Shown here: positions 7,707 to 22,693 of the stretch, piece after piece
Layout of the letters: every line of letters begins with the position of its first letter
How positions within the stretch are numbered: position 1 is the stretch's first letter
Made by a program: the position numbers and the translations under genes
Notes under the pieces: generated by a model
What the model was told of the DNA's origin: nothing
What the model saw: the letters and a program-made list of their open reading frames with translations, nothing else
The model's database searches: none
Assembly (NCBI GenBank): GCA_020624805.1
Contig: JAHKVW010000006.1
Location: forward strand, 1-64,000
Direction of reading: 5' to 3'
DNA: 64,000 bases
Source of the DNA: a bacterium
Lineage (GTDB): Bacteria > Bacillota > Clostridia > Oscillospirales > Acutalibacteraceae

Positions 7707-9191
7707 ATGTCGAGACTCGGCGTTATTATTGATAACACCTATCAATTAATTGAATACATCAATCGCGGCGGTATGTCGATCGTGTATCTCGCGGAGAACA
7801 TTCGGCTCGGAAATCGTTGGGCGGTCAAAGAGATTGTCAAAACGAACGATGAATATAACCGTCTGTACATCGACGCTTTGATCCATGAAGCGAATATGAT
7901 GAAGGATCTTGACTATCCCGCGTTTCCGCGCATCGTCGATATCATCGAGGATGACTACGCGCTCTATCTGGTGATGGATTATATCGAGGGCAAAACGCTG
8001 GAGGAGATCCTCTTTGAAGAAGGACCCCAACCCGAGGAGAGGGTGATCGGATGGGGCGTGCAGCTGTGCGACGCGATGTCTTATCTGCACAATCAGCCTT
8101 CCCCGATCATCTACCGTGATATGAAACCATCCAATGTGATCATGAAACCGGATGGCAGTCTGAGGATCATCGACTTCGGTGTGGCAAGGGTGTTTCATCC
8201 CGAAAAGACCAATGATACCGTTGCGCTCGGCACCAAGGGCTTTGCGCCGCCGGAGCAGTATGTCGGTCAGACGGATGAGCGCTCGGATATCTATGCGCTC
8301 GGCGCGACCATGCGGTATTTGTTGACAGGTGTGAATCCCCGTTCGAATGAGGCAGTGGATTATCCCGCGCTCTACGCGCAGATGGGATTGTCGGATAAGA
8401 TGATCCGCATCCTCGATAAATGTACCGCGATCAATCCCGCTGATCGTTATCAGACAGACAGCGAGCTGTGTGAGGCTCTCACCGAGGATGATCAGGCGGT
8501 AAAGCTCGCCCGTAAGATGAAAAAGATGAAGATCATCCTGCTGATCGCCGCGATCGTCGTTTTTGTGATCGGTCTGTCCGTGACGGTTTACAGCCTTGTC
8601 GGTATCAGGCAGCAAGAGATCATCGAGGCAACGGAAAATGCCGCGCCGCAGCTGGCTGTTGTGCCGAATCTGGTCGGAAAAACCTATGAAGAGGCAAAGG
8701 CGATTTTGGAAAAAGAGGGCTTGACCTGTGAAAAAACGGAGTCCTACAACGCAACGGTGAAAAAGGGCGTCGTGATCAGTCAGGATAAGCGCCCCAATGA
8801 GGTCTTGGAAAAGGGCTCAAAGATCGTTCTTACCGTGAGCTTGGGCGAAGAGGGTGAGACGACTGAAGCAGAAGCTGAGGAATCCAAGGAGAAGGACAGC
8901 AGTGAAAGCAGCTCCAAATCATCGTCCTCAAATTCATCGAGCAACGACTCCGACGATGATAACGGCTCTGACTCCGACTCTTCAAGAACCAGTCATTCCG
9001 CCGAGGATAACTCGGGCGGAGGCTCAAGCGGCAGCAGTTCCGGCTCCTATTACTCTGCATCTTCTTCCGCTTCCGGCGCAGATAGCGGTTCAGCTTCCGG
9101 CGCAGATAGCGGCTCAGCTTCCGCAGCGTCCGGCGGCGAAGGCGGTCAAGGTGGCGAAGGCGGTCAAGGCGGCGGAAGCGCAAGCCAGTAA
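7707..9191 (+). CDS. Membrane Ser/Thr protein kinase with one PASTA-like repeat and a Ser/Gly-rich tail
   Basis: GMSIVYLAE, AVKEI, IYRDMKPSNV, DFGVAR, APPEQY; TM; VVPNLVGKTYEEAKAILEKEGLTCEKTESYNATVKKGVVISQDKRPNEVLEKGSKIVLTVSLG. Confidence 0.92.
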   Translation: MSRLGVIIDNTYQLIEYINRGGMSIVYLAENIRLGNRWAVKEIVKTNDEYNRLYIDALIHEANMMKDLDYPAFPRIVDIIEDDYALYLVMDYIEGKTLEEILFEEGPQPEERVIGWGVQLCDAMSYLHNQPSPIIYRDMKPSNVIMKPDGSLRIIDFGVARVFHPEKTNDTVALGTKGFAPPEQYVGQTDERSDIYALGATMRYLLTGVNPRSNEAVDYPALYAQMGLSDKMIRILDKCTAINPADRYQTDSELCEALTEDDQAVKLARKMKKMKIILLIAAIVVFVIGLSVTVYSLVGIRQQEIIEATENAAPQLAVVPNLVGKTYEEAKAILEKEGLTCEKTESYNATVKKGVVISQDKRPNEVLEKGSKIVLTVSLGEEGETTEAEAEESKEKDSSESSSKSSSSNSSSNDSDDDNGSDSDSSRTSHSAEDNSGGGSSGSSSGSYYSASSSASGADSGSASGADSGSASAASGGEGGQGGEGGQGGGSASQ

Positions 9192-9201
9192 TTGTACTAT
9201 C

Positions 9202-9366
9202 AATCCCCCTGTATTTGCACAATATCATTAAGTTAAGGAAGGCTCCTTTTGGTAAAAGGAGCTGTCGCCCGTTGGCGACTGAGGAATTGTATCAATCGAT
9301 CGAGCGTCAGCGAGATACTTTTTCCTTAACTTAATGACATTGCTGTTTTGCAGGGGGATTTTTTGC
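9202..9366 (+). terminator. Kinase-gene terminator stem whose loop contains repeat copy A
   Basis: AATCCCCCTG (9202-9211) and CAGGGGGATT (9351-9360), followed by T-run. Confidence 0.6.
9220..9342 (+). repeat. MITE-like palindromic element, copy A
   Basis: Imperfect 21-bp TIR CAATATCATTAAGTTAAGGAA / TTCCTTAACTTAATGACATTG, internal GGCTCCTTTTGGTAAAAGGAGC and GTCGCC..GGCGAC hairpins; near reverse complement of 22529-22657. Confidence 0.85.
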
Positions 9367-9580
9367 ACTTTTCGGGTGTTGCTATTTTTTTTTCATCGAT
9401 AGATCTTCTTGTGATCCATAGACTGTAAGAATGGCGCTCCAACATGGAATCTATCTCAAAAACAACAGCAAAATTAGGGGAATATGTCAAAACGAGGATA
9501 ACTTTATGTGCAAACTGCACAATTGCGAAAGGGCGTTTTTATATATTTAGTGGATTTTTCCGCTCGGCGGACGGTTTTTA

Positions 9581-9609
9581 TTGTACCGACCCTCGATTTG
9601 TACTATAAT
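9581..9609 (+). promoter_or_regulatory. Sigma-A-like promoter of the EF-G-like gene
   Basis: TTGTAC - 17 nt - TATAAT. Confidence 0.6.
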
Positions 9610-9731
9610 GATATGGTAGCTTGAAACAGGTATCATCTGTTGTGAGAGCATAGGCAACCGAGGATTAATCCGAGATCGTGTTTATTCTCAGTTGACTAAC
9701 GAACATCACACTCTTGAAAGGAGTTTTTTCA

Positions 9732-11804
9732 TTGAAACAGTACGACCCGAAACACATTCTCAATATCGCTATGGCAGGCCATTCCGGCGCGGGTAAGACT
9801 TCCGTTGCCGAAGCGATGCTGTATCTTTCCAAGGCGAGCGACCGTCTGGGCAAGATCGCCGACGGCAACACCCAGCTTGACTTTGACGCGGAGGAGATTC
9901 GCCGCAAGGTATCTATCGTTACCGCAGTAGCTCCCGTAGAGTGGAAGAATACAAAGATCAACATCATCGACACCCCCGGTCTGTTCGACTTTGAGGGCGG
10001 CGTTTTTGAAGGCTATCGCGCGGCTGAGACAGCGGTCATCGTTGTATCCGCAAAGGACGGCGTGAATGTCGGTACCGAAAAGGCTGTCAAGGCTGCCGAT
10101 AAGGAAGGTCTGACCAAGATCTTCTTCGTCAACGGCGTATGCGACGAGGACGCTCGCTTCTATCGTGTATTAGAGGATCTCAAGGCGACCTTCGGTCCCT
10201 CCGTATGCCCTGTCATCGTTCCGCATATCGAGAACGGTCAGGCGAATACCTACATCAATCTGCTCGAATACAAGGCTTATAAATATGACAACAAGGGCAA
10301 CGCGACTCCCACCGCGATCATCCCCGAAATGGGCGACCGCTTTGAGGGACTCCGTGAAGCCATCAAAGAGGCTGTTGCCGAGACCAGCGAAGAGCTGATG
10401 GAGAAGTTCTTCATGGAAGAGGAATTCACCCCCGAAGAGATCATCACCGGCGTTTCGCAGGGCGTCAAGGACGGCTCTCTGTGCCCCGTATTCTGCGGTG
10501 ACGCGGCTACTACCTTCGGCATCGAGCAGTTCCTGAACACCATAACATGGCTGGCTCCGACTGCCGCCGACAAGGGTTCCGAGACCGCTGTTGACGTCAA
10601 CGGCGACCCCGTAGAGATCGCCTGCAACGAGCAGGGCGCTACCGCCGCGATCATCTTCAAGACCGTAGCCGACCCGTTCGTCGGTAAGCTGAGCTACTTC
10701 AAGGTCGTATCCGGTAAGGTAAGTACCGATACACCTCTTGTCAATATGCGCACCGGTAATCAGGAGCGTATCACCAAGGTGCTGACCGTTCGCGGTAAAA
10801 AGCAGGAGGACGCCGCCGCGGTACTCGCGGGCGATATCGGCGCGATTCCGAAGCTGACCGCCGCCAATACCGGCGACACCCTTTGCTCTCCCACCCGCAA
10901 GGTCATCCTTGACGGCATCGATTATCCGGCTCCTTCCTTCACGATGGCGGTTTATCCCAAGAAGAAGGGTGAAGAGGATAAGGTAGCGCAGGGTCTGGCC
11001 CGTCTGGTCGAGGAAGATCCCACCATCCAGTATAAGAACGACCCCGAGACCAAGGAGCTGGTCATGTCCGGTATGGGCGAACAGCATCTGGACGTCGTCG
11101 TTTCCAAGTTAAAGAGCAAGTTCAACGTAGAGGTTGAGCTCAAGCAGCCCAAGGTCGCGTATCGTGAGACCATCCGCGGCAAGTCCGATGTGGAAGGCAA
11201 GCATAAGAAGCAGTCCGGCGGTTCCGGCCAGTACGGTGACGTATGGATCAAGTTTGAGCCGTGCGATTCCGACGGTCTGGAGTTCGATATCGCCGTTGTC
11301 GGCGGTTCGGTTCCGAAGCAGTTCTTCCCGGCTGTTGAAAAGGGACTGAGAGATTCCATCAAGCACGGCCCGCTGGCAGGCTATCCGGTCGTCGGCGTGA
11401 AGGCGACGCTGTATGATGGTAAGTACCATCCCGTTGACTCCAACGAAATGGCGTTCAAGACCGCTGCTCAGCTCGCTTTCAAGGCGGGTATCCCGCAGGC
11501 TAAGCCCGCTCTGCTGGAGCCGGTCGGTTCCTTGAAGGCGACCGTTCCGGACGCGAACATGGGCGACATCATGGGCGAGGTCAACAAGCGCAGAGGCCGC
11601 GTGCTCGGTATGAACGCCGGCGAGGACGGCATGCAGATCGTCGAGGCTGAGGTCCCGATGGCCGAGATGGCTGACTTCTCCGTATTCATGCGCCAGTGCA
11701 CCCAGGGTCGCGGCAGCTACAGCTTTGAGTTCGAGCGCTATGAAGACGCTCCCGCTCAGGTTGCTCAAAAGGTCATTGAAGCCGCTAAGGCTGATATAGA
11801 TTAA
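9732..11804 (+). CDS. Elongation factor G-like translational GTPase
   Basis: P-loop AGHSGAGKTS, DTPGLFDF (G3), EF-G domain IV/V signatures YRETIRGK, GQYGDVWIKFEP, RRGRVLGM; TTG start after AAAGGAG. Confidence 0.88.
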   Translation: MKQYDPKHILNIAMAGHSGAGKTSVAEAMLYLSKASDRLGKIADGNTQLDFDAEEIRRKVSIVTAVAPVEWKNTKINIIDTPGLFDFEGGVFEGYRAAETAVIVVSAKDGVNVGTEKAVKAADKEGLTKIFFVNGVCDEDARFYRVLEDLKATFGPSVCPVIVPHIENGQANTYINLLEYKAYKYDNKGNATPTAIIPEMGDRFEGLREAIKEAVAETSEELMEKFFMEEEFTPEEIITGVSQGVKDGSLCPVFCGDAATTFGIEQFLNTITWLAPTAADKGSETAVDVNGDPVEIACNEQGATAAIIFKTVADPFVGKLSYFKVVSGKVSTDTPLVNMRTGNQERITKVLTVRGKKQEDAAAVLAGDIGAIPKLTAANTGDTLCSPTRKVILDGIDYPAPSFTMAVYPKKKGEEDKVAQGLARLVEEDPTIQYKNDPETKELVMSGMGEQHLDVVVSKLKSKFNVEVELKQPKVAYRETIRGKSDVEGKHKKQSGGSGQYGDVWIKFEPCDSDGLEFDIAVVGGSVPKQFFPAVEKGLRDSIKHGPLAGYPVVGVKATLYDGKYHPVDSNEMAFKTAAQLAFKAGIPQAKPALLEPVGSLKATVPDANMGDIMGEVNKRRGRVLGMNAGEDGMQIVEAEVPMAEMADFSVFMRQCTQGRGSYSFEFERYEDAPAQVAQKVIEAAKADID

Positions 11805-22478: not shown

Positions 22479-22528
22479 GCCGCGATCCCGCAAAAAGCAT
22501 ATTGACACAAACAAGCGCTTTCTTTGGT

Positions 22529-22657
22529 CGATATCATTAAGTTAAGAAAATGTATCTCGCTGAAGCTCGAGCGATTGATGCAATTCCTCAGTCGCCCGAC
22601 ATATGTCGGGCGACAGCTCCTTTTACCAAAAGGAGCCTTCTTAACTTAATGATATCG
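22529..22657. repeat. MITE-like palindromic element, copy B
   Basis: Perfect 18-bp TIR CGATATCATTAAGTTAAG / CTTAACTTAATGATATCG; internal GTCGCCCGACatatGTCGGGCGAC and GGCTCCTTTT hairpins. Confidence 0.85.
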
Positions 22658-22693
22658 TTACCTCGGTAGGCGCTTGTTGTATCGTAATCCGTA

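Follow-up and report, generated by a model that had tools for sequence, protein, structure and literature searches.

A small element in the terminator of a PASTA kinase gene, probably an IS4-family MITE of an IS1675-like group inserted at terminator hairpins

Results

Anatomy and location of the element. The DNA analyzed here (the window, 64,000 nucleotides from a member of the Acutalibacteraceae) carries a gene for a PASTA-domain kinase whose stop codon, at 9191, is followed from 9202 by the 5' arm of an intrinsic terminator that is interrupted by copy A of a short element (Table 1). A preliminary description had reported an element of about 120 bp with imperfect 21-bp terminal inverted repeats (TIRs) and without an ORF, and this was confirmed: the two TIRs pair at 20 of 21 positions, and 9220-9342 is not covered by any ORF. 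The outer arms, AATCCCCCTG (9202-9211) and CAGGGGGATT (9351-9360), lie outside copy A, with a run of T's after the 3' arm, and the stretches between the arms and the TIRs correspond to an imperfect target duplication of 11 bp, one copy on each side. Arms and TIRs together form an inverted repeat (9202-9240/9322-9360) of 39 nt that is 79% complementary and that is not a product of chance, since the window holds four CATTAAGTTAAGG-like ends, which make up two TIR pairs, compared with 0.58 expected.

Table 1. Positions of the element copies and of the associated features in the window
Feature	Position	Strand	Remarks
Ser/Thr kinase with PASTA domain	7707..9191	+	Gene served by the terminator; Pkinase 1.9e-38, PASTA 1.5e-16
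5' arm AATCCCCCTG of interrupted intrinsic terminator	9202..9211	+	Uninterrupted in G017 (L051)
Left target-site duplication copy CTGTATTTGCA	9209..9219	+	Loop plus part of stem; empty site, CTGTGTAAGCAG
MITE copy A	9220..9342	+	Length, 123 bp; no ORF; contains three hairpin segments
Left terminal inverted repeat CAATATCATTAAGTTAAGGAA	9220..9240	+	
Internal hairpin 1 (GCTCCTTTT/AAAAGGAGC)	9242..9262	+	
Internal hairpin 2 (GTCGCC/GGCGAC)	9264..9279	+	Compensatory stem changes among copies
Right terminal inverted repeat TTCCTTAACTTAATGACATTG	9322..9342	+	
Right target-site duplication copy CTGTTTTGCAG	9343..9353	+	
3' arm of terminator (GCAGGGGGATT) and U-tract	9350..9366	+	
MITE copy B, same TIRs as copy A	22529..22657	-	Empty terminator in G017 (L160)
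Terminator arms of copy B, AACAAGCGC and GCGCTTGTT	22510-22518 and 22670-22678		

Empty sites and other copies. The close relative G017 has the same kinase/EF-G arrangement with a terminator that lacks the element. Its junction (L051) reads ACCGATCCCCCTGTGTAAGCAGGGGGATTTTTGCGC, the same terminator, here with a loop of six bases; the bare hairpin is GATCCCCCTG-TGTAAG-CAGGGGGATTTTT. This agrees with the earlier proposal that the flanking sequences are the arms of one terminator split by the element. Copy B is bounded by a 10-bp duplication (TTTCTTTGGT, element, TTACCTCGGT), and its site in G017 is likewise an empty terminator, which reads AACAAGCGCTTACTTCGGTAGGCGCTTGTT. The two empty sites and the duplication of loop and inner stem also support the proposed insertion into a terminator loop. 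In two other close relatives, G044 (L048) and G012 (L052), the PASTA kinase gene is absent at this place, where its own terminator and EF-G come directly after a NUDIX gene.

A BLAST search of the host genome gave 53 matches, and about a dozen of these are copies with both TIRs; the core is repeated frequently in the genome, and further matches are core repeats that lack TIRs. When the TIR-bearing copies from five genomes of the genus were pooled, a MITE set of about 31 was obtained, nearly all of them intergenic and two of them (L081 and L088) with exact 11-bp duplications. The preliminary description had asked whether other genomic copies are flanked by hairpin arms; they lie mostly in hairpins, and the outer arms are not alike between sites. 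These data bear on the possibility that the outer stem is part of the element and the whole is a fixed long hairpin terminator unit. Outer arms do go with many copies, but they vary by site and empty terminators with the same arms exist, so that this possibility is refuted by the empty sites and retains practically no probability. Copy A thus has the properties by which a MITE is recognized: it is short, noncoding, TIR bounded and multicopy, it has target-site duplications (10-11 bp) with empty sites in G017, and its TIRs are common to autonomous elements of the same genus (L164, L166, and L109).

Several further features of the copies were observed. In the host genome the MITE core (AAGGCTCC...GAGATAC) is also found at many places that lack the CATTAAGTTAAG ends (L010, L011, L013, L016, L021, L023-L026, and L030), and some of these repeats are longer foldbacks that have a second, inverted half; the MITE looks like a core repeat that has been enclosed by IS ends. 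Blocks of additional sequence within hairpin 1 or 2 (e.g., CCCCCGTTGGGGGAATGTCCGCAAAGCGGACAAGGGGGGAGCCGC...) were found in L014/L015 and L019/L020/L027/L028, and because such blocks are shared between loci, the hairpin tips of the MITE seem to acquire modules. At L020, around 1370-1590 (G000 C120:34087 region), an intact terminator lies to the left of the copy and a repeat of its 3' arm to the right, as if the whole terminator arm had been duplicated. In L014 the right outer arm (AGGAGGG) falls where the following gene probably has its ribosome-binding site.

Transposase-bearing partners. The MITEs share the TIR CAATGTCATTAAGTTAAG, as well as target duplications of 10-11 bp, with complete transposase-bearing ISs of about 1.66 kb. 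Contigs of the genome collection contained 44 relatives, and both ends were found for 21 of them; these complete ISs are about 1.6-1.7 kb each, except for a shortened 1.15-kb copy (L147). Duplications of 9-11 bp with about one mismatch or none flank 13 of the 21, as in L118 (CAAACTCCCCCAGAGG, IS, CCCCCAGAGGGAGTTTGTTTTTT), L130 (GAGGGGCTGATGCC, IS, GGCTGATGCCCCTCTTTT), and L139 (AAAGGATGTCTATTTAGAC, IS, CTATTTAGACATCCTTTTTT). Little or no target duplication was seen in L117, L119, L120, L122, L123, L136, and L164, which are intact and have well-matched TIRs, and several of the duplication-poor ISs have matching outer arms nonetheless. The lack of a duplication may be due to recombination between copies or to chimeric assembly. 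The flanks of L119 resemble halves of two different terminators.

The same-genus ISs L164 and L166 begin with CAATATCATTAAGTTAA, as does the MITE, and the left TIR of copy A is identical to the left end of L164 over the first 18 bp and to that of L166 over the first 17. In G035, an IS4-family transposase gene (L109) with the left end CAATGTCATTAAGCTAA lies downstream of ftsZ after the half-terminator AAAAGCCCTTCCGGG, on a contig that ends inside the IS. Just inside this left end, at about 1010-1052, the IS carries a hairpin resembling an intrinsic terminator (ATACCTCGTACTC...GGGTACGGGGTATTTTTT) that could take over from the terminator split by the IS. The transposase of this group was found in 5 of 161 genomes of the genus and not in the host draft genome; repeated ISs are often lost from draft assemblies. 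A single DDE_Tnp_1 match in the host was considered as the partner transposase and rejected, as it lacks these TIRs. Relatives were not found in the viral contigs searched, and in the phage collection they were limited to one small fragment.

By its sequence the transposase is a member of the IS4 family, scoring 189 bits against NCBIfam NF033592 (cutoff, 115). The transposase of L124 has the YREK signature Y(2)R(3)E(6)K (YAMRWSIETSFRELK) and the D(60-110)D(100-150)E pattern (D115, D191, and E330), and the IS ends fit -AATR--------WTW (CAATGTCATTAAGTTAA) with 10-bp duplications. The account by De Palmenaer, Siguier and Mahillon (2008, PMC2266710) describes the IS4 subgroup by -AATR--------WTW ends, YREK and DDE motifs, and duplications of 10-13 bp. 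On sequence criteria, then, the partners appear to fit subgroup IS4 by their ends, motifs, and duplication length.

Target-site preference. Empty sites were rebuilt by dropping one copy of the duplication and were scored for a stem centered within 4 nt. This score replaced a first hairpin test, the folding of 44-nt windows, which was too permissive, with 20-40% of controls positive. Stem scores of at least 20 were obtained for 11 of 21 IS sites and 13 of 31 MITE sites, compared with 1.4% (IS) and 1.8% (MITE) at nearby positions, 1.2% and 1.7% at random flanking positions, and 5.6% and 5.3% when left and right flanks were swapped between copies. The binomial probabilities were about 2e-15 (IS) and 3e-15 (MITE) against the nearby control and about 4e-9 and 7e-9 against swapped flanks, and the statistics were unchanged after orthologous duplicate sites had been removed. 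Terminator-like hairpins with a T-tract were present at 14 of 31 MITE sites versus 0.9% of nearby positions. The complementarity of the rebuilt sites peaks exactly at the duplication center (0.53 for ISs and 0.46 for MITEs, with a background of about 0.25), and the hairpin dyad is centered on the duplication within half a base on average.

These values argue against survivorship alone, that is, wide insertion followed by survival just in terminators or 3' regions. Insertions in genes would indeed be lost, and the predominance of intergenic copies accords with this, but strong hairpins occur at 1-2% of nearby positions versus 42-52% of sites, and such precise centering is not expected from survival alone. 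We therefore consider survivorship very unlikely as the sole explanation.

The preference for hairpins is strong but not absolute, because about one-third of the sites lack a good hairpin (e.g., L125, L135, L147, L003, L029, and L096). At some sites (e.g., L120, L123, and L142) the hairpin has no clear T-tract, which points to the inverted repeat, not the U-tract, as the probable cue. Orientation relative to the U-tract showed no significant bias (IS, 6:4; MITE, 15:7; P = 0.13).

How the inverted repeat is recognized can be read in two ways. A preference at the sequence level, with somewhat less than an even chance of being correct, would have a GC-rich inverted repeat read in the ordinary duplex, as reported for IS231A, with terminators as the commonest sequences of this kind and no hairpin or cruciform involved. 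The swapped-flank controls are already raised (about 5% versus 1.4-1.8%), indicating a shared left/right sequence bias, and in Lactococcus and Enterococcus the duplicated core GGGTATACYC shows conservation of its sequence and not of foldback alone. Target specificity has also been noticed earlier in IS4-family relatives (PMC2266710). However, the arms differ greatly between clostridial sites, and the complementarity is near background in the loop and reaches about 14-16 bp from the center, beyond the 10-bp duplication, a profile that a stem-loop fits better than a short palindromic motif. The second reading, recognition of DNA secondary structure, is a tentative one to which we give somewhat less than an even chance: an IS4-family DDE transposase would capture extruded terminator hairpins (cruciforms) and join symmetrically across the loop, and a widespread group of ISs and MITEs of Bacillota would use terminators as safe havens, in which fold-back MITEs let the terminator re-form.

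Fold of the occupied terminator. The RNA of 9195-9370 has a folding energy of -74.7 kcal/mol, compared with -40.7 for shuffled sequences (z = -8.1). In the predicted fold the terminator arms are paired, the TIR stem is stacked beneath them, and the inner hairpins lie inside. Termination may thus be largely kept at the occupied site and the insertion tolerated, because the fold-back MITE would let the arms of the transcript pair again just before the U-tract. Pairing in hairpin 2 is kept through changes on both sides (alignment A1, columns 50/69: GC 12, AU 6, CG 4, UA 1). These compensatory changes and the conserved three-hairpin fold would be in line with an insert co-opted as a regulatory RNA or attenuator at the kinase/EF-G junction and hence retained. 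Compensatory change, however, can also stem from DNA pairing or arm-to-arm correction, no Rfam family matched 9000-9800, many copies lie at unrelated genes, and the nearest relative lacks the element at its kinase terminator; co-option is therefore highly improbable.

Discussion

Taken as a whole, copy A is very probably an IS4-family MITE of an IS1675-like group, inserted at terminator hairpins. As a nonautonomous element it would be moved in trans by an IS4-family transposase of this group, which we infer because TIR, duplication length, and target type agree. The transposase would pick inverted-repeat DNA as its target, chiefly intrinsic terminators, and the element ends would be joined at a stagger of 10 bp (in some cases 11 bp) placed symmetrically around the hairpin dyad; the loop and the inner stem would thereby be duplicated, with one outer arm left on each side.

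An element that aims for terminators spreads without gene damage, because intrinsic terminators are common and lie between genes. The relatives of copy A that carry a transposase occur in gut and dairy bacteria and make up a little-described group with this aim. The group extends to Lactococcus, Enterococcus, and Lactobacillus, which can be cultured, so that the rule is directly testable, and the fusions of MITE and terminator show a route to new long terminator structures.

Group IIC introns, which insert at terminator stem-loops, are known to choose their targets by structure; no description of such choice by IS4-family transposases was found in the literature searched. The preliminary description had compared the element with terminator-favoring elements such as these introns. 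The comparison was a proper one, although copy A is not a group IIC intron but an IS4-family MITE related to IS1675: it has no ORF, the Rfam search was negative, and none of the parts of such introns was found in it. Group IIC introns, moreover, are RNA retroelements that insert beside the stem, without TIRs or target duplications. Another element for comparison is IS231A, of the IS4 family, whose target, GGGN5CCC with bending, is palindromic, GC rich, and about one helical turn long. Its palindromic and GC-rich character and its length are shared with the targets described here; in contrast, the TIR of IS231A begins CAT... and its target is a short motif, not a full terminator stem.

Extragenic palindromes are also the target of ISs, including the IS4-family ISRm22, that insert in REP sequences (PMC1525189); these target one repeat family, whereas the present group uses many unrelated terminators. 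The text of PMC2266710 contains no mention of terminators, and insertion of IS4-family elements in terminators was not reported in the open-access literature searched, which does not prove that there is no such report. We claim as new just the terminator rule with its MITEs, since target specificity in the IS4 subgroup (PMC2266710) and insertion of IS4-family elements in REP sequences (PMC1525189) are already known.

Among the named elements found, IS1675 of Lactococcus is the nearest, and it has close relatives on Enterococcus plasmids. IS1675 has the same TIR (CAATGTCATTAAGTTAAGGA), a 10-bp duplication, and a length of 1.60 kb, it sits in intrinsic-terminator-like hairpins, and the transposase of IS1675 and its Enterococcus relatives is about 44% identical to that of the clostridial IS L124. 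The ISs of Lactococcus and Enterococcus lie in terminator-like hairpins of the form (A)nGACCAACAGGGTATACCCTGTTGGTC(T)n with a 10-bp duplication, and several hundred records of plasmids from Enterococcus and lactobacilli contain the bare hairpin. The Enterococcus faecalis plasmid pBEE99 is empty where pMG2200 has the IS, with an identical right flank (340/340), and an IS site in Lactobacillus crispatus reads AAAAAGCAGACCGAAAAAATC, IS, GAAAAAATCGGTCTGCTTTTT. Two differences set IS1675 apart: it is autonomous, with a gene, while the element in the window is a 123-bp MITE, and its plasmid sites have a conserved core sequence, while the MITE sites share little sequence.
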